From Labilibaculum euxinicum (GTDB lineage: Bacteria; Bacteroidota; Bacteroidia; Bacteroidales; Marinifilaceae), in NCBI RefSeq assembly GCF_009795715.1, contig NZ_WTCR01000006.1, positions 186,001 to 250,000 of the forward strand: a stretch of 64,000 bases of DNA, in the 5' to 3' direction. The notes below the pieces were generated by a model. It ran no database searches. It had not been told where the DNA came from and saw nothing but the letters and a program-made list of their open reading frames with translations. The position numbers and the translations under genes were made by a program. Positions 16,389 through 38,613 of this stretch are shown here, piece by piece; positions within the stretch are counted from its first letter, which is position 1, and each line of letters starts with the position of its first letter.

Positions 16389-16773
16389 AAAAACTATTAT
16401 TTATTGTTCTAATTCGCTGAATTGCAGGCGTGTTATGCTTAGGTAAAATATATTCGTAAAAGGAAGAATTACAGCCATTTTTGTGCTTCCCGCGAAATCA
16501 GGTAGAAAGATATAAATAAAAGTGCAAACCCATAAACTTTTATATGTTTTACGGATGAAAAAGTCTTTTTCTTTTGTTTGGGTGTGTCCCTTCGGGGCGG
16601 GCTATTCGCTAAATCTTTTTTTCGTTCCTCAAAAAAGGATACCGCTGCTATCCCTCACACAATCCTGTTTGTTTAGAGTCACAAGTAACAAAAATTCAAG
16701 TGTAAAGGAATAAATTTTTAAGGTAAAAAGTATTCAAATAACATATAATAATCCTTTAATTTTTAAGGAGTTG
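16389..16773. other. 385-base intergenic region with one structured element
   Basis: Between two minus-strand genes. The only clear content is the hairpin-rich element at 16579-16666, described separately. A 63-codon open frame starting at 16522 runs through that element and looks spurious. Confidence 0.6.
16579..16666. repeat. Hairpin-rich intergenic element, possible dispersed repeat or RNA
   Basis: A G/C-richer island in AT-rich spacer. It contains CCC-TTC-GGG (16588-16596), a T-run/A-run stem ATCTTTTTT with AAAAAAGGAT around CGTTCCTC (about 16613-16640), GGATA-CCGCTGC-TATCC (16637-16653), and outer GTGTG (16582-16586) against CACAC (16656-16660). The sequence resembles an element I recall from many Bacteroidota spacers (CGGGCTATCCGCT... 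GATACCGCTGCTATCCC), commonly mis-annotated as a small protein. Its function is unknown. That it is dispersed cannot be checked inside one window. Confidence 0.5.
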
Positions 16774-28722: not shown

Positions 28723-29100
28723 ATGAAAAAAACTATTAATTCAGAAAAGGCACCAAAAGCAATCGGACCATACAGCCAGGCTGTCGAAGCTAACGGAACA
28801 CTTTACATTTCAGGTCAGCTTCCTGTTGATGTTGCAACAGGAAAATTTGTAGAAGGCGGTGTTAAGGAGCAAACCGAACAGGTAATGAAAAATATCGGTT
28901 ATATTTTAGAAGAAGCAGGCTATACCTACAAGGATGTTGTTAAATCGACATGCTTATTGAGTGACATTTCTGGTTTTGCTGAAATGAATGCCGTTTATGG
29001 CGAATTTTACAAAGAAGAATGTCCTGCCCGTGCTGCTTTTGCAGTTAAGGATCTTCCTTTGGGAGCATTAATTGAAATAGAAACTATTGCGGTGAAATAA
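28723..29100 (+). CDS. ridA: RidA-family enamine/imine deaminase
   Basis: A 125-residue RidA protein that hydrolyses reactive 2-aminoacrylate and related imines formed by PLP enzymes; active as a cytosolic trimer. It has the family signatures IGPYSQAVEANGTLYISGQLP (read as IGPYSQA and LYISGQLP), VVKSTCLLSDI (about 72-82) and CPARAAFAV with the catalytic Arg103. Full length with a good ATG and a terminator 24 bases after its stop. A decayed second copy lies 2.8 kb downstream at 31848-32105. Confidence 0.95.
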   Translation: MKKTINSEKAPKAIGPYSQAVEANGTLYISGQLPVDVATGKFVEGGVKEQTEQVMKNIGYILEEAGYTYKDVVKSTCLLSDISGFAEMNAVYGEFYKEECPARAAFAVKDLPLGALIEIETIAVK

Positions 29101-31847: not shown

Positions 31848-32105
31848 TAATTCTCTGTTAATGATGCTATTGTATGTAATTTTGTTGAAGAACAAACCGA
31901 ACAGATCATGAAAAACAATGGTTATATATTTGGAAGAGCTTATACTTTTAAAGGTGTTGTTAAATCAACCTGTTTCTTGTGTGAGATCTTTGTTTTTTCG
32001 GGGAAGTTTAGGCGGGCATATAATTTGTTTGAATCCAAACTGTTTTCAATTCATTGTGTGTGTTGTAAAGTATTGGTTTTGTGCATCGTTTCGCAATCCA
32101 TTGCG
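31848..32105 (+). pseudogene. Decayed second copy of ridA
   Basis: Aligns residue for residue with intact RidA from about Gln32 to Ala123. Examples are EEQTEQIMKNNGYIF against KEQTEQVMKNIGYIL, and YTFKGVVKSTCFLCEI against YTYKDVVKSTCLLSDI. The reading frame is held through most of the match, with a four-codon deletion after NFV and a two-codon deletion near the end. The N-terminal third is lost or unrecognisable, and an in-frame TAA stands near the start of the match. The catalytic Arg of CPARAAF is Ile here. It is an old, non-functional duplicate. A short open frame inside it (from 31908) should not be annotated as a gene. Confidence 0.8.
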
Positions 32106-32258: not shown

Positions 32259-33974
32259 ATGGATGTCTTTAAGCCTGTTTATACGGAGCAAAACGATTGT
32301 CAGGATTGTTACAAATGCATAAGGGAATGTAAATTGAAAGCCATTAAGGTGGTTAATAATTCAGCTCAGATTCTTCACGATGATTGTATTTACTGCGGAA
32401 CCTGTACCTTAATTTGCCCGGTAAATGCCAAGAAAGTTCGCAGCGATGTAAATAAAGTAAAGGGTTTATTGAAGCGCAATCAAAAAGTAATTGTTTCATT
32501 GGCACCATCATTTGTTACCGAATTTCCAAATTTGTCCGACGTGCAAATTGCAGCATCTTTAAAATCATTGGGATTTGCACATGTGTCTGAAACTGCATTG
32601 GGAGCTCAGGAGGTCTCAAAAAAAGTGTCTGAATTTATCGGAAAACAGGATAAAGGAATTTATATTTCTTCGGCATGTCCATCGGTTGTTGAGATGATCT
32701 GTAAACATTATCCAAAATATAAAAATTACATAACCCCGTTTTTATCACCACTTTTAACCCATTCCAAATACCTTAAAAACCGGTATGGAGATGATACTCA
32801 TGTTGTTTTTATTGGCCCTTGTATCGCAAAAAAAGCCGAGAGTGATCAGTTTCCTGAATTGTTGGATGCGGCACTCACATTTTCGGATTTAAGGAAATGG
32901 TTCGAAGAAGAAAATATCGATCCTTATTTATTTTCGGAGGACGAGAAAGAAGAGGTTTTTGTTCCGGGAAAAGCAGGAAGAGGCGTACTTTACCCAATAG
33001 ATGGAGGAATGATAATGGGCGTGAAGAACAATACCACCGCAACCGATGCTGTTTATATGACTTTCTCCGGAATTACCAACATTCAATCCGTTTTAGTTGA
33101 TCTGGATAAGTACAAGAAATCGAATGTGATGTTTTTGGAACTTTTGGCCTGCGATGGCGGTTGTGTTAATGGACCGGGAACCAGTAAGTCCTATTCAACT
33201 GCGATTAAACGTTTAGAGGTAATCAATAAGCTTGGTAAAGAGCAGGCTTATCAGTTGGAAACTGATTTTTCAATTGAAAGAACTTTTGATTCTATTCTCC
33301 CAATAGAGCGAAGAGAACATGCTGAGAGTAATATAAAAGAAGCACTAACCATGGTTGGGAAGTACTCCGATAAAGATGAAATTAATTGTGGCGGTTGTGG
33401 TTACAACAGCTGCAGGGAGTTTGCAGGAGCACTGCTTGAAGATCGGTCGGAGCCAAACATGTGTGTATCCTACATGCGAAAAATTGCGCATGATAAATCA
33501 TCAGCACTTTTGCGTAAAATTCCTTCGGGAGTTGTAATTGTCAACGAGCAATTGAAAATTATAGAGGCGAATCTTAGTTTTTCCAGAATGATGGGAGCCG
33601 AGATTGAACAATTGTATGAAACAGTTCCCGGTTTAGTGGATGCTGATTTGCATAAAATTGCTCCTTTTTACAAGTTGTTTTCATCGGCACTTTCAACGGG
33701 TGTTGATAATTTGGAGAAAGATATTCGTTTTGGTAACAAAATGTTTCACATTACACTTTTCAGTATTCATAAAAATAAAATAGTAGGAGCTATTCTTCGG
33801 GACATGTCGCAACCTTTTATTCAACGCGAAGAAGTGATATCGAGAGCAAAATCTGTAAACCAAAAAAATCTGGAAACAGTGCAGAAAATTGCTTACTTAC
33901 TTGGAGAGAATGCCTCGGAAACAGAGGAAATGCTGAACTCTATCGTCGAATTTTACAGTCTCTCACAAGATTAA
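32259..33974 (+). CDS. [FeFe]-hydrogenase-like sensory protein with ferredoxin, H-cluster, Fe-S and PAS domains (copy 1)
   Basis: A 571-aa cytosolic protein. Residues 10-65 are a two-cluster ferredoxin (Cys14, 17, 20, 24; then CIYCGTCTLICP). Residues about 75-350 are the [FeFe]-hydrogenase large-subunit domain. L1 reads SSACPS (Cys140, with the usual proton-transfer Cys replaced by Ala139), L2 GPCIAKKAE (Cys188) and L3 ELLACDGGCVNGPG (Cys298, Cys302). All four H-cluster ligand positions are kept. A further Fe-S motif follows (CGGCGYNSC, Cys377/380/385 plus Cys402), then a PAS domain (about 415-530: KIPSGVVIVNEQLKIIEANLSF). The Cys-to-Ala change and the PAS domain match putative sensory hydrogenases (HydS, group C). 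The partner phosphatase starts nine bases downstream. Likely role: sensing H2 or redox state; inference. Confidence 0.85.
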   Translation: MDVFKPVYTEQNDCQDCYKCIRECKLKAIKVVNNSAQILHDDCIYCGTCTLICPVNAKKVRSDVNKVKGLLKRNQKVIVSLAPSFVTEFPNLSDVQIAASLKSLGFAHVSETALGAQEVSKKVSEFIGKQDKGIYISSACPSVVEMICKHYPKYKNYITPFLSPLLTHSKYLKNRYGDDTHVVFIGPCIAKKAESDQFPELLDAALTFSDLRKWFEEENIDPYLFSEDEKEEVFVPGKAGRGVLYPIDGGMIMGVKNNTTATDAVYMTFSGITNIQSVLVDLDKYKKSNVMFLELLACDGGCVNGPGTSKSYSTAIKRLEVINKLGKEQAYQLETDFSIERTFDSILPIERREHAESNIKEALTMVGKYSDKDEINCGGCGYNSCREFAGALLEDRSEPNMCVSYMRKIAHDKSSALLRKIPSGVVIVNEQLKIIEANLSFSRMMGAEIEQLYETVPGLVDADLHKIAPFYKLFSSALSTGVDNLEKDIRFGNKMFHITLFSIHKNKIVGAILRDMSQPFIQREEVISRAKSVNQKNLETVQKIAYLLGENASETEEMLNSIVEFYSLSQD

Positions 33975-33983
33975 CAGTCATAT

Positions 33984-35168
33984 ATGTCATCCAATTTTTA
34001 CATAGAAGTAGAATGCCAGCAGAAGAACTTTAATGGTCAGTCCATTTGTGGTGATGTGTTTATGTCGCGGAAAATAAAAGAGGAGGGACGAACAGTTCTT
34101 GTTTTATCAGACGGATTAGGAAGTGGTGTTAAAGCGAATGTGCTGGGTACACTCACGGCATCGATGATTCTGAACTACATGAAGGTGAATAAGGATATTC
34201 GTAAAGCGGCCGAAGTAATTATGAAAACTCTTCCGGTTTGCAGCAAACGAAAAGCAAGTTATTCTACTTTTACCATTGTTGAAATTGAATGCGATGGTGA
34301 GACCCGGATTATTCGATATGATAGTCCTGAATGCCTTATTTTGCGTGGATTGGAAAGTTTTGTCCCCGATTGTGAAGAGTTAAGTCTTACGGGTGATCGC
34401 AATGAAGGAAAAGTACTGTATTCATATCGGTTTATGGCTCAGAAAGAAGACAGGATTGTATTCTGCTCCGATGGAGTTACCAATTCGGGAATGGGAAGTA
34501 CGCGATTGCCATTTGGCTGGGGCTTGGATAATCTGGATGCGTATGTAAAAGGATTGATTCGCAGACAGCCATTTATATCTGCCCGGCAATTGGGTGCTTC
34601 GGTTGTTGACCGGGCCTGTGCTAATTATGGAAATAAACCTAAAGATGATACTTCATGCGGGGTACTCTATTTTCGGGAACCACGAAATTTATTAATATGT
34701 ACGGGACCTCCCTACGAAAAATCGAAGGATGTGCAGTTGGCAAAACAAGTTGTGGAATTTGTGGGTAAGAAGGTGGTTTGCGGGGGCACAACAGCCGGGA
34801 TTATCTCTCGTGAAATTCAGGTTCCAATTGAGGTTGAATTAACAATTACTGATTCGGAATTGCCGCCAATATCACATATTAATGGTATTGATTTGGTTAC
34901 CGAGGGCATTTTAACTTTGGGCAAAGTATATCGCTTACTTAAAAATTACAAACAAAATTCATCATTGCGACAAGGTCCGGCGGATCTGCTGGTTCGGGTT
35001 TTATTGGAAAGTGATAAAATTTTTATTATCAATGGAACAAAGATAAATGTTGCGCATCAGGATCCTAATTTACCAATGGAATTAGAGATACGCAGAACCG
35101 TTGTAAAGAATATTGTTGCTCTACTGGAGGAAAAGTTTTTAAAAGAAGTAGATCTTAGTTATATTTAA
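33984..35168 (+). CDS. SpoIIE-family PP2C-type protein phosphatase (copy 1)
   Basis: A 394-aa protein. The N-terminal half is a SpoIIE/PPM phosphatase domain with metal-binding motifs ICGDVF (Asp24), LSDGLGSG (Asp43), FCSDGVTNSGMGS (about 165) and DDTSCGV (about 215). The C-terminal half (about 230-390: LLICTGPPYEKSKDVQLAK, VCGGTTAGIISREI, TDSELPPISHINGIDLVTEGILTLGKVYRLL read in parts) is conserved with the copy at 37429 but is of no domain I can name. It follows the hydrogenase-like sensor by nine bases. Predicted to dephosphorylate Ser/Thr on an unknown partner when the sensor signals. No anti-sigma-factor antagonist gene is visible nearby. Confidence 0.83.
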   Translation: MSSNFYIEVECQQKNFNGQSICGDVFMSRKIKEEGRTVLVLSDGLGSGVKANVLGTLTASMILNYMKVNKDIRKAAEVIMKTLPVCSKRKASYSTFTIVEIECDGETRIIRYDSPECLILRGLESFVPDCEELSLTGDRNEGKVLYSYRFMAQKEDRIVFCSDGVTNSGMGSTRLPFGWGLDNLDAYVKGLIRRQPFISARQLGASVVDRACANYGNKPKDDTSCGVLYFREPRNLLICTGPPYEKSKDVQLAKQVVEFVGKKVVCGGTTAGIISREIQVPIEVELTITDSELPPISHINGIDLVTEGILTLGKVYRLLKNYKQNSSLRQGPADLLVRVLLESDKIFIINGTKINVAHQDPNLPMELEIRRTVVKNIVALLEEKFLKEVDLSYI

Positions 35169-35294
35169 AATGAAATATAACCCATATTAAACATGGGGTA
35201 TTGTTGATTGAATTTCCATTTGGTGGGTAGTCTTGTTGGTGAATTGGAAGAAAGTAACAATCCTCATGAAACAGATCATAAAGACAATTACTAA

Positions 35295-35546
35295 ATGGCC
35301 GAAAAAATCGAAATTACCATTTGCTTGGGAAGTTCTTGTTTTTCAAGAGGTAACGGGAAATCTTTAAAAGCGATTAATACCTTTTTGGAAGAAAATAAAT
35401 TGAAAGACAAGGTGTTCTTTCATGGTGAATTGTGTACAGGAAATTGTGCCAAAGGACCTATTTTAAAAATTGGAGATGAACTGCACGAGGAAGTCGATCC
35501 GGATAGTGTCGTTGAAATATTAAACGGTGTTTTTGGGCTCGTTTAA
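35295..35546 (+). CDS. Thioredoxin-like [2Fe-2S] ferredoxin (NuoE/HydC C-terminal type)
   Basis: An 83-residue protein with the thioredoxin-fold [2Fe-2S] pattern of NuoE and hydrogenase gamma subunits: ICLGSSC (C-x4-C) and LCTGNC (C-x3-C, followed by AKGP). It stands alone as a small domain rather than as part of a larger subunit. It lies between the two sensor/phosphatase pairs and could pass electrons to or from their Fe-S clusters. There is a 126-base gap before it and 29 bases after it. Confidence 0.87.
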   Translation: MAEKIEITICLGSSCFSRGNGKSLKAINTFLEENKLKDKVFFHGELCTGNCAKGPILKIGDELHEEVDPDSVVEILNGVFGLV

Positions 35547-35575
35547 TTAAGTCTCTCAATCCTAAAAAACTCATT

Positions 35576-37429
35576 ATGCCATTAATTGTAACCAATAAGA
35601 ACAAGTGTAATCTTAGTTATACGTGTATTCGGGTTTGTCCTGCCAAAGCAATTAAAATAAAGGATGATTTTGCAAACATCATTAAAAGCAGATGTATTGG
35701 TTGTGGAAATTGTGTTACTGTTTGTGCTCAAAATGCGATAGAATATAGAAGTTCGGAAGATTTGGTTAAGCAATTGTTAGCTGATACCGAGCCTGTAGTT
35801 GCCATATGTGATCCAAGTATTTCAGGTGAGTTTGATGATATTCTGGACTTTCGGAATTTTGTTGGTATGATTAGGGCTTTGGGTTTTGATTACGTTGTTG
35901 AAGCTGCTTTTGGTGCAGATTTGGTGGCCTACCGCTACAAGGAACTGTTCGCAAATTTCCATGGGAAGTATTATATCTCAACAAAATGTCCGGCTCTGGT
36001 AAATAATATTGAGAATTTTCATCCCGGATTAGTTGATAATCTGGCCCCAATTGTACCGCCTGGTATTGCCATGGCAAAAGTGGTACGAAAAAAGTATGGC
36101 AAAAATGTTAAGATTGTTTCTTTATCGCCTTGCGTTGCCAGTAAAGATGATGTGAAAGCATTTAATGGAACTGACGGAAGTGTTCATGCAGTTTTAAGTT
36201 TTGCCGAATTAAGAAAGCTGTTTACAGAGTACGGAGTTTCGGAAAACTCAGTTGAATTCTCAGAGTTTGATCCTCCATTCGCTCGTTTAGGAGGTTTATT
36301 TCCAATTAGTCATGGTCTGTTTCAGGCTGCAGATATCGATATATCCATGCTGAATGGTGGGATTATTAGTACTGAGGGAAGAAACAATTTTTTGAGGTCG
36401 ATCAATGAGTTTAAAACTCAGCATGATCTGAACCAGCATCTTGATTTATTTTATTGCGAAGGTTGTATTATGGGACCTGGAACTTCGCCGGGAGGGCGAA
36501 AATTCTCTCGTCGGTCTCAAGTAATTCGTTACGTGCGCAAAAGGTTAAAAACTCTTGATGAGATTAAATGGCAGAAAGAAATTGATGAATACAGTGATCT
36601 TGATTTAACCCGGGGATTTAAATCGAAAGGAAGGGAGCTTCCTGTTCCTACAGAAGAAGAGATATTGGAAGTATTGGTGGAGATGGGAAAAGGAAAAATT
36701 GAAGACCAATTAGGTTGTGGTTCCTGTGGTTATGAGTCTTGCAGGGAGTTTGCGATTGCAAAATGTCAGGGGCTGGCCAATTATGAGATGTGTTCTTCCT
36801 TTACAATTAAAAATATGAACAGCTATATTAAAGAGCTGGGAAATACAAATGCGCAGTTAACTAAAACAAAAGCGGCATTAAAGGAATCGGAAAGAATTGC
36901 CAACGAAGAAAGAATTATAGCGCAGGAAGCTTCAGAAACGGTGTCGGCCATGTTACAGAAACTTCCTTCGGGAGTTGTAATTGTCGACGAAAGGCTGAAA
37001 GTAATTGAGTCGAATAAAACTTTCGTTGATTTATTGGGTGAAGAGACCCGAATGCTGAATGAAATTATTCCCGGATTAGTTGATGCAGATTTAACAAAAT
37101 TGATCAGTTTTCATAAATTCTTTTCCACAGTAATTTTGAATGGAGAGGATATCTTAAACAAGGATGTACATTTTGGAAACAGGTTGTTCAATGTTTCGGT
37201 TTTTACCATTAAAAAAAATAAGATTGTTGGTGGTATTATTCGCGATTTATACGCTCCTGAAGTAAGGAGAGAAGAGGTTATTGGCCGAGCAAGAGCGGTT
37301 ATTAAAGAGAATCTTCAAACAGTGCAGCAAATTGCCTTTTTATTGGGTGAGAGTGCTTCCAAAACGGAAAAATTACTAAGCTCGATCATTAAATCCCATG
37401 CTTCAGGGGAAGAAGGGAAAGGCGAATAA
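35576..37429 (+). CDS. [FeFe]-hydrogenase-like sensory protein, divergent copy 2 with altered metal loops
   Basis: A 617-aa protein with the same order as copy 1: ferredoxin (1-60), hydrogenase-like domain (about 70-340), Fe-S motif (CGSCGYESC from Cys381), a coiled-coil stretch (about 425-460) and PAS (about 460-575: KLPSGVVIVDERLKVIESNKTF). Several ligand loops differ. The first ferredoxin cluster reads CNLSYTCIRVC with Ser14 in place of the second Cys. L1 is STKCPA with Lys137 where the proton-transfer Cys belongs. L2 is SPCVASK (Cys186). L3 is FYCEGCIMGPG, in which the two cysteines (294, 297) are C-x2-C instead of C-x3-C. It is less likely than copy 1 to hold a standard H-cluster. The stop overlaps the next start (TAATG). 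Confidence 0.83.
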   Translation: MPLIVTNKNKCNLSYTCIRVCPAKAIKIKDDFANIIKSRCIGCGNCVTVCAQNAIEYRSSEDLVKQLLADTEPVVAICDPSISGEFDDILDFRNFVGMIRALGFDYVVEAAFGADLVAYRYKELFANFHGKYYISTKCPALVNNIENFHPGLVDNLAPIVPPGIAMAKVVRKKYGKNVKIVSLSPCVASKDDVKAFNGTDGSVHAVLSFAELRKLFTEYGVSENSVEFSEFDPPFARLGGLFPISHGLFQAADIDISMLNGGIISTEGRNNFLRSINEFKTQHDLNQHLDLFYCEGCIMGPGTSPGGRKFSRRSQVIRYVRKRLKTLDEIKWQKEIDEYSDLDLTRGFKSKGRELPVPTEEEILEVLVEMGKGKIEDQLGCGSCGYESCREFAIAKCQGLANYEMCSSFTIKNMNSYIKELGNTNAQLTKTKAALKESERIANEERIIAQEASETVSAMLQKLPSGVVIVDERLKVIESNKTFVDLLGEETRMLNEIIPGLVDADLTKLISFHKFFSTVILNGEDILNKDVHFGNRLFNVSVFTIKKNKIVGGIIRDLYAPEVRREEVIGRARAVIKENLQTVQQIAFLLGESASKTEKLLSSIIKSHASGEEGKGE

Positions 37430-38613
37430 TGGACGAGAAATTTCATATAGATATTGACTGTCAGCAACTCTTTCATCATGGTGAAATGATTTGCGGTGAT
37501 GTGTTTCTCTCGAAGAGAATTAAAGAGGAAAACAGGACAATTGCTGTGTTGAGTGATGGCATGGGAAGTGGAGTGAAGGCCAATGTGCTGGCAACATTGA
37601 CTGCATCAATGGCGATGAATTTTACAGCAGAACACAAAGATGTAAAAACCATTGCCGAAATTATCATGAACACGCTTCCTGTTTGCAGCGTTCGAAAAGT
37701 AAGCTATTCAACCTTCACCATAATTGATATTGAATTTGATGGAACAACACGTATCATTGAGTTTGATAATCCCTTGTGTGTGGTGATGCGTGGTTCTGAG
37801 GTTTTCGATCCGGGATGGAGGACAATTCTGCTTGACAGTGAAGAAAATCAAGGAAAAGAACTTAGAACCTGTGAATTTACTGCCCGAAAAGAAGACCGTA
37901 TTCTGTTTTGGTCCGATGGAATTATGCAGTCGGGAATGGGAAGCAGGGAATTGCCTTTTGGATGGGGACATGAAAGTGCTTTAAAATTTGTCACCAATAT
38001 TGTAAAATCGACCCCTTACATATCTGCCCGTAATTTGGGCATGCAGTTAGTGAAAAAAGCGGCCAGAAACGATCAGGATGAGCTAAAGGACGATACAAGT
38101 GCCGGTGTAATCTATTATCGGGAACCGCGTAAACTTTTAATTTGCACGGGTCCTCCTTACGAAAAGGATAAGGATGCTGAGCTGGCCATGAGAGTGTATC
38201 ATTTTAAAGGGAAAAAAATTATTTGCGGAGGAACAACGGCCGAAATTTTGGGTCGCGAATTAAATTTAAAATTTGCCGCCGGAATGAAAATTACGGATCC
38301 GGAACTTCCGCCGGCATCTTATATGGAAAGTATAAATTTGGTTACCGAAGGCATTTTAACGATTGGAAAAGTTGCCCGGATTCTTGGGGATTACAATAGT
38401 GATTATGATTTGGGAGACGGGCCTGCTGATCAGATAGTTCACTATCTTTTACAGAGTGATAAAATCTCAATTATTTCCGGAACAAGAATTAATTTTGCTC
38501 ATCAGGATCCCAGTTTACCTATTGAATTGGAGATCAGAAGAACAGTTGTAAAAAGAATAGTTAGTCTTCTTGAGGATAAATTTTTAAAAGATGTTACTCT
38601 AACCTTTATTTAG
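37429..38613 (+). CDS. SpoIIE-family PP2C-type protein phosphatase (copy 2)
   Basis: A 394-aa protein of exactly the same length as copy 1 and clearly a duplicate: ICGDVFLSKRIKEE, LSDGMGSGVKANVLATLTASM, FWSDGIMQSGMGS and DDTSAGVIYYREPRKLLICTGPP line up without gaps. The metal ligands (Asp in GDVF, DGMGSG, SDG, DD) are all kept. It is translationally coupled to sensor copy 2 by a one-base TAATG overlap, so each sensor has its own phosphatase. Substrate is unknown. Confidence 0.83.
   Translation: MDEKFHIDIDCQQLFHHGEMICGDVFLSKRIKEENRTIAVLSDGMGSGVKANVLATLTASMAMNFTAEHKDVKTIAEIIMNTLPVCSVRKVSYSTFTIIDIEFDGTTRIIEFDNPLCVVMRGSEVFDPGWRTILLDSEENQGKELRTCEFTARKEDRILFWSDGIMQSGMGSRELPFGWGHESALKFVTNIVKSTPYISARNLGMQLVKKAARNDQDELKDDTSAGVIYYREPRKLLICTGPPYEKDKDAELAMRVYHFKGKKIICGGTTAEILGRELNLKFAAGMKITDPELPPASYMESINLVTEGILTIGKVARILGDYNSDYDLGDGPADQIVHYLLQSDKISIISGTRINFAHQDPSLPIELEIRRTVVKRIVSLLEDKFLKDVTLTFI

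Follow-up and report, generated by a model that had tools for sequence, protein, structure and literature searches.

Sensory [FeFe] hydrogenase-like proteins have been recognized from homology, and their role continues to be described as putative. HydDB lists [FeFe] group C3 as "Phosphatase-linked (putative)", with possible H2 sensing and regulation via serine/threonine phosphatases (PMC5037454). Ruminococcus albus has a group C protein, putatively sensory, that is accompanied by a putative Ser/Thr phosphatase subunit and has been proposed as an H2 sensor (PMC6776011). Here, we describe a related locus of Labilibaculum euxinicum, located in a stretch of 64,000 nucleotides (assembly GCF_009795715.1, contig NZ_WTCR01000006.1, positions 186,001 to 250,000), hereafter the window. 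Two hydrogenase-like proteins, HydS1 and HydS2, each precede a SpoIIE-type phosphatase (PP), PP1 and PP2, respectively. The proposal put forward, to which we give an even chance, is that HydS1 is an H2 (or redox) sensor lying beside an H2-blind pseudo-hydrogenase, HydS2, with each driving its own phosphatase. The sensor pair would probably read two different signals rather than H2 twice.

The locus consists of five co-directional open reading frames (ORFs), spaced in order by 9, 126 and 29 bp and ending in a 1-bp overlap between HydS2 and PP2. HydS1 (32259..33974, + strand, 571 aa; positions are those of the window) combines two [4Fe-4S] ferredoxin clusters, an [FeFe] H-domain, a Cx2Cx4Cx16C Fe-S motif and a PAS domain. 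It is followed by PP1 (33984..35168, +, 394 aa), a SpoIIE/PP2C-type phosphatase with a C-terminal domain of ~160 aa. A thioredoxin-like [2Fe-2S] protein, abbreviated Fd (35295..35546, +, 83 aa), appears from its position to open the HydS2 cassette, which continues with HydS2 itself (35576..37429, +, 617 aa), a putative pseudo-hydrogenase-type sensor with an intact Cx2Cx4Cx16C motif and a PAS-like C-terminus. PP2 (37429..38613, +, 394 aa), again a SpoIIE/PP2C-type phosphatase, is by position the partner of HydS2. In Pfam, Fe_hyd_lg_C is matched by HydS1 (1e-45) and HydS2 (2e-33), both of which also match Fer4 and FeS (PF04060); SpoIIE (PF07228) is matched by PP1 (3e-10) and PP2 (5e-11), and 2Fe-2S_thioredx by the 83-aa protein (6e-10). 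An earlier description made from the letters alone (the sequence-only reading) had proposed a tandem of two hydrogenase-like/SpoIIE phosphatase pairs with a [2Fe-2S] protein between them, and ORFs, order, strand and domains are as it stated. It had also placed a PAS domain in both copies. This is borne out for HydS1, whose match lies above the Pfam cut-off (22.6 versus 21.8 bits); in HydS2 the match stays under it (18.2 bits), and the assignment comes from 51% identity to the PAS region of HydS1. Over their full length, HydS1 and HydS2 are 35% identical; PP1 and PP2 share 58%. The assembly (5.06 Mb, 39 contigs) is rated 100% complete, and the five-gene order is not an assembly artefact, since the same order recurs in 11 related genomes.

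HydS1-PP1 fits the HydDB description of group C3, in which a putative [FeFe] sensor is coupled to a Ser/Thr phosphatase: HydS1 has the Cys ligands of the H-cluster, Cx2Cx4Cx16C and PAS, and a Ser/Thr phosphatase gene adjoins it. HydS2, in contrast, lacks residues needed for the H-cluster, and in the window the two tandem cassettes are neither separated nor directly flanked by a hydrogenase gene. HydS1-PP1 is a probable further member of the named class C3, whereas HydS2-PP2 and the tandem depart from it as a new variation; no paper on the HydS2 lineage or on a phosphatase-linked degenerate H-domain was found by title or abstract start, in a search that covered little of the subscription literature. 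The R. albus system likewise has a PAS-bearing H-cluster subunit and a phosphatase; unlike in the window, its genes are transcribed together with those of a ferredoxin-only hydrogenase and an alcohol dehydrogenase, and a single sensor is described (PMC6776011). The hfs hydrogenase of Thermoanaerobacterium (hfsABCD) has been suspected to be a regulator owing to its PAS domain; HfsD has been placed in group B (PMC5707799, PMC8924675). Relatives of the window carry a presumably comparable Fd-HydS1-PP-(Fd)-monomeric hydrogenase arrangement, but in the window no monomeric hydrogenase lies beside HydS1, and the group B enzyme of the genome is encoded elsewhere (G000:C32). A partial precedent for a degenerate sensory H-domain is provided by group C1 [FeFe] proteins of Hydrogenedentota, which join an H-domain to a kinase-like HATPase domain and whose H-cluster motifs were "hardly" findable (PMC11406978). 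HydS2 differs from them, as it has no kinase and lacks the histidine kinase linkage that defines C1, ending instead in a PAS region and adjoining a separate phosphatase.

The H-sites are compared in CpI numbering, of which the motif numbering beyond C299, M353 and M497 is assumed by us. Lys358 helps to hold the [2Fe] site. HydS1 shows Ala299, Cys300, Gly353, Cys355, Lys358, Glu361, Leu497, Cys499 and Cys503, with Cys at all four H-cluster ligand equivalents (C300, C355, C499 and C503). HydS2 carries Lys299, Cys300, Ser353, Cys355, Ser358, Asp361 and Phe497, and its L3 loop, one residue shorter, reads CEGC instead of CxxxC; of the residues that ligate or hold the H-cluster, Lys358 is thus replaced by Ser and the L3 motif is altered. 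The proton-transfer Cys had been reported as replaced by Ala139 in HydS1, which is correct, and HydS2 carries Lys there. On these residues, HydS2 is predicted to lack the [2Fe] site.

The same residues were counted across the order of the host (Bacteroidales). Among HydS1-type proteins with a letter at the respective position, C300 and C355 are found in 23/23 and Lys358 in 22/23; CxxxC is present in 80/80 HydS1-type proteins among the best 80 loci of a genome contig scan. In the HydS2 family, Lys358 is left in 1/69, with C300 in 65/69, C355 in 63/69 and C503 in 65/70. L3 reads CxxC in 44/69 HydS2-type proteins and CxxxC in 4/69, and one or both of its Cys are missing in 21/69 (both present in 48/69). 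At least one H-cluster ligand Cys is absent in 21/69; six of the 69 lack C355, and of these, five also lack C503 and four C300. The pocket of the family has Asn at 299 in 44/69 (Lys in the window) and Phe at 497 in 55/70. Three of the 69 rows are long branches (L194, L195 and L199), of which L195 has no phosphatase immediately downstream. The remaining Fe-S sites are largely kept: the Cys of the C-terminal motif in 70, 70, 69 and 70 of 70 proteins, and each Cys of the second ferredoxin cluster in 69/69. The first ferredoxin cluster is short of one Cys in 14/69, among them the window protein, where it is Ser. Within the 11 relatives that share the tandem, HydS1 has SACP, PCxAKK and ACxGGC in 11/11, and HydS2 has Ser358 and CEGC in 11/11. 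Kinase-fused proteins of the order, called HydS2', retain Lys358 in 15/15 and show CCxGC at L3 in 13/15; kinase-type proteins of another class retain Lys358 in 11/11. The idea that a CxxC L3 is unique to the window was rejected, this form being common to 11/11 kinase-fused relatives of another class (presumably Ignavibacteria).

Phylogenetic trees were quick ones with thinned sampling, and "supported" refers only to the SH-aLRT (Shimodaira–Hasegawa-like approximate likelihood ratio test) values given. In the H-domain tree (88 of 136 proteins, including 6 of 54 HydA and no sequence known as C3), both H-domains fall among PAS- or kinase-linked proteins and not with HydA or the monomeric enzymes, in line with the sensory placement advanced earlier, but they belong to two separate clades. 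The HydS1 domain belongs to a group whose 12 other members are HydS1-type proteins of the order (99), and that of HydS2 lies in a HydS2 clade of 28 rows (100) whose sister is HydS2' (3 rows, 99), a fusion of H-domain and histidine kinase (H-box and G2 motif in 15/15 completed copies). The view of two copies with two sensing ranges is not supported, as the H-domains are of two lineages and HydS2 is without residues conserved in sensory [FeFe] proteins. Likewise, the supposed doubling of one sensor is, judging from trees and gene order, a juxtaposition of two cassettes; a recent tandem duplication was rejected, given that the two H-domains belong to different clades and that relatives carry the cassettes separately. 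With the ligand columns left out of tree building, parsimony needs 9 changes to account for ligand loss in the HydS2 family, of which supported branches alone force 2. As a separate observation, proteins of 754-1348 aa from genomes of another class (L065, L066 and L067) carry a deep-branching H-domain (100, branch 1.55).

The output parts are placed differently. In the phosphatase tree (80 of 165 phosphatases), window PP1 is placed inside the HydS2-type phosphatases (98), apart from the other HydS1-type ones; on this tree, PP1 in the family of the window is of HydS2-type descent. The PAS tree (88 rows, with every second HydS2 PAS and every fourth of the best 80 loci from the contig scan) unites the HydS2 PAS regions in one clade (99), which lies with 19/24 HydS1-type PAS rows of the order, and the other 5/24 sit with other phyla across a long branch (100). 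The window HydS1 PAS stands next to HydS2 and PAS-PAS rows, though below supported level (89). An approximately unbiased (AU) test rejects a single clade of all 24 HydS1-type PAS rows (p 1.4e-9), a result that the five outlier rows leave with little bearing on nesting. The mean identity of the window HydS1 PAS is 44.5% to HydS2-type PAS of the order and 22.7% to HydS1-type PAS of another class. Since the H-domain, PAS and phosphatase trees place the parts differently, the HydS2 H-domain is, by these trees, one from kinase-linked kin joined to a PAS/phosphatase output. PAS and phosphatase appear to behave as a module. Its mobility is suggested by two loci (L196:6548-7474 and L197:5967-6893) where the phosphatase is preceded not by HydS but by a PAS-PAS protein devoid of hydrogenase, H- and Fe-S domains, and its portability as an output by the likeness of the window PAS to HydS2-type PAS while the H-domains fall in separate clades.

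A search with PP2 gave matches (E up to 1e-15) in 88/247 genomes of the order, and at E up to 1e-40 in 2/295 of a class-wide sample, namely the window genome and one of its order. One hundred regions around the matches in the order were read, covering all 87 other PP-bearing genomes, and several of them stop at contig ends. They contain two kinds of cassette: (i) Fd-HydS1-PP-(Fd)-monomeric hydrogenase and (ii) Fd-HydS2-PP, often divergent from a HydB-HydA-HydS2' set. The HydA of this divergent set (L111, L114, L116, L117, L120 and others) also varies at catalytic positions: the 36 proteins with a letter at 358 have Lys (21), Arg (9), Ala (4), Ser (1) or Asn (1), and Cys299 is kept in 18. Counted by genome, the HydS1 type occurs in 23 and the HydS2 type in 71, with both in 11, the window genome included. 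In none of the 100 regions from the 87 other genomes do the two types lie side by side, and in six of them no HydS gene is visible. Another genome of the order has two HydS1-type/phosphatase units in tandem (L136). Among relatives, comparison of gene order speaks for the tandem: the exact order HydS1-PP1-Fd-HydS2-PP2 is present in 11 relatives (16 regions read from a sample of 40), which comprise 7/8 sampled congeners and members of four other genera of the family; the eighth congener is 63% complete. In a further member of the family (G808), the cassettes lie on different contigs (L335 and L336); four others (G400, G802, G807 and G810) yielded the HydS1 type only, and six gave no match.

Selection was estimated in the 12 tandem operons (66 pairs) from pairs with 0.05<dS<1.5 only; as pairs share branches, are not independent and differ between segments, the values are descriptive. 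The median omega of the H-domain is 0.026 in HydS2 (21/66 pairs usable) versus 0.106 in HydS1 (15/66), and that of the phosphatase is 0.018 for PP2 (20 usable pairs) and 0.053 for PP1 (11). Because omega is lower in the HydS2 H-domain, the degenerate domain is, in descriptive terms, under strong purifying selection and kept more strictly than the intact one of HydS1. HydS2 proteins lacking ligand Cys gave 0.038 over ferredoxin and H-domain for one pair (L116/L163) and 0.092 for another (L117/L157), the latter at a dS of 1.99, near saturation. HydS2 as a decaying pseudogene was rejected on the basis of intact ORFs and low omega.

Both phosphatases match the SpoIIE/RsbX structures 3t91, 5ucg and 3w40 by profile, with a PP2C-type domain at residues ~4-230. 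They have the Asp set D24, D43, D163, D221 and D222, presumably the PP2C metal ligands, and all five Asp are kept in the alignment in 69/69 phosphatases adjoining HydS2, including 21/21 adjoining a Cys-lacking HydS2. They resemble SpoIIE and RsbX in this domain and the kept Asp residues, and differ from them by the additional conserved C-terminal domain of ~160 aa, which has no Pfam match above cut-off in PP1 or PP2 and touches one solved structure by profile (E 0.87). The PAS domain is predicted to be physically linked to the phosphatase.

The sequence-only reading had noted neither maturation genes nor a matching kinase in the window; both are encoded elsewhere in the genome. HydE (355.8 bits), HydF (483.9) and HydG (507.9) all score above curated cut-offs, and an absence of maturases was rejected. 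SpoIIAB/RsbW-like kinases and, as possible anti-sigma antagonists, stand-alone STAS proteins are likewise found. With hydEFG and a candidate kinase in the genome, the interpretation of HydS1 and its SpoIIE phosphatase as a sensory-type [FeFe] unit stands and fits putative group C. The genome encodes six [FeFe] H-domain proteins: two HydA in HydABC-type sets, one group B type monomer above the NCBIfam cut-off (TIGR04105, 520 bits), HydS1, HydS2 and HydS3. HydS3 (455 aa, with the C-terminal Fe-S motif, no PAS) adjoins HydABC, two DRTGG genes, a PHP gene and a SpoIIAB-like kinase (TIGR01925, E 2e-14, below cut-off). This kinase is present in 61/88 PP-bearing versus 16/159 other genomes (Fisher p 6e-22), and among genomes with HydF in 55/79 versus 13/71 (p 2e-10), both uncorrected for kinship. 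DRTGG, kinase and HydS3 genes lie in whole or part near PP cassettes at six loci (L099, L101, L107, L109, L167 and L197). The DRTGG protein adjoining the kinase has an invariant DLxS motif (7/7), a candidate phospho-site. The phosphatases are predicted to be paired with the SpoIIAB-like kinase, with a STAS or DRTGG protein as their target. Other partner candidates are the stand-alone STAS proteins and an RsbW-type kinase, and as the genome has six SpoIIE domains in all (E up to 0.001), more than one pairing is possible.

Taken together, the locus may be a two-channel signalling unit. In channel 1 (HydS1-PP1), the H-cluster would report H2 or redox state via the C-terminal [4Fe-4S] cluster and PAS to the SpoIIE-type phosphatase. 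In channel 2 (Fd-HydS2-PP2), a pseudo-hydrogenase that has lost residues for holding and tuning the [2Fe] part of the H-cluster would most likely report Fe-S redox state or partner binding, not H2. Both phosphatases would work against a SpoIIAB-like Ser kinase whose gene lies elsewhere, and the phospho-state of a shared target would integrate both channels. A broader version is tentative, and we lean somewhat against it: a clade-wide pseudo-hydrogenase would have dropped the H-cluster, swapped its histidine kinase for a PAS/SpoIIE output and become an H2-blind reference, which one family set beside a true H2 sensor to read H2 relative to Fe-S redox. If the proposal holds, an H-domain under strong selection after ligand loss would imply that signalling by this fold does not require H2 chemistry, and such genes in metagenomes should be scored as hydrogenases or H2 sensors with caution. 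The tandem would also offer a natural control pair in one operon, an intact and a degenerate sensor with a phosphatase each.

Several observations weigh against the two-channel reading. The window protein keeps four Cys near the H-cluster site, and a cubane or an odd H-cluster may be bound there. HydF is encoded in 79/88 PP-bearing genomes, so maturation is usually available. The kinase/phosphatase association may stem from shared ancestry or a shared H2 lifestyle. The ferredoxin part is less constrained in HydS2 (median omega 0.056, 49 usable pairs) than in HydS1 (0.033, 17), and this looser constraint does not favour redox input through it. Lastly, mean identity across the order is 51.5% for the HydS2 H-domain and 51.7% for PAS, with no sign of relaxed constraint. 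The retained Cys (C300, C355 and the CxxC) and the hydEFG genes would also suit two true H2 sensors that differ in affinity or redox range and have a phosphatase each, and changes at 299, 353 and 497 are tolerated in other sensory proteins (PMC10055695). The same study, however, describes the ligand Cys and H-bonding residues as conserved in sensory enzymes (PMC10055695), and HydS2-type proteins have lost Lys358 in 68/69, shortened L3 and, in 21/69, lost ligand Cys, which makes such a pair quite improbable.

It is doubtful, too, that the H-site of HydS2 still holds a [4Fe-4S] cluster and serves to sense a different ligand (CO, NO or O2). C300, C355 and C503 persist in most HydS2-type proteins and new pocket residues recur (Asn299 in 44/69, Phe497 in 55/70), but 21/69 lack a ligand Cys although both the phosphatase and the remainder of the protein persist. 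A regulatory role without own input, in which HydS2 would bias HydS1-PP1 through PAS-mediated heteromers, accords with the 51% identity of the PAS regions, the co-directional genes in an order conserved in 11 relatives and the HydS2-type descent of PP1 (98). We consider this unlikely, since 60/71 HydS2 genomes show no HydS1-type gene in the regions read around their phosphatases, so HydS2 usually occurs without HydS1. That both proteins are catalytic hydrogenases, as the match to the [FeFe] hydrogenase domain could suggest, deserves almost no credence: the proton-transfer Cys is missing in both, each has a phosphatase partner, the H-domains group with PAS- and kinase-linked proteins rather than with HydA or monomeric enzymes, and the genome encodes HydABC-type sets and a group B enzyme apart from them.

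Two further features were seen in the window. Just upstream of hydS1, a decayed part-copy of ridA was recognized by eye at 31883-31997 (75% over 118 bp versus 28860-28977). A Flavo-1 RNA lies on the minus strand at 16591-16662 (44.8 bits).

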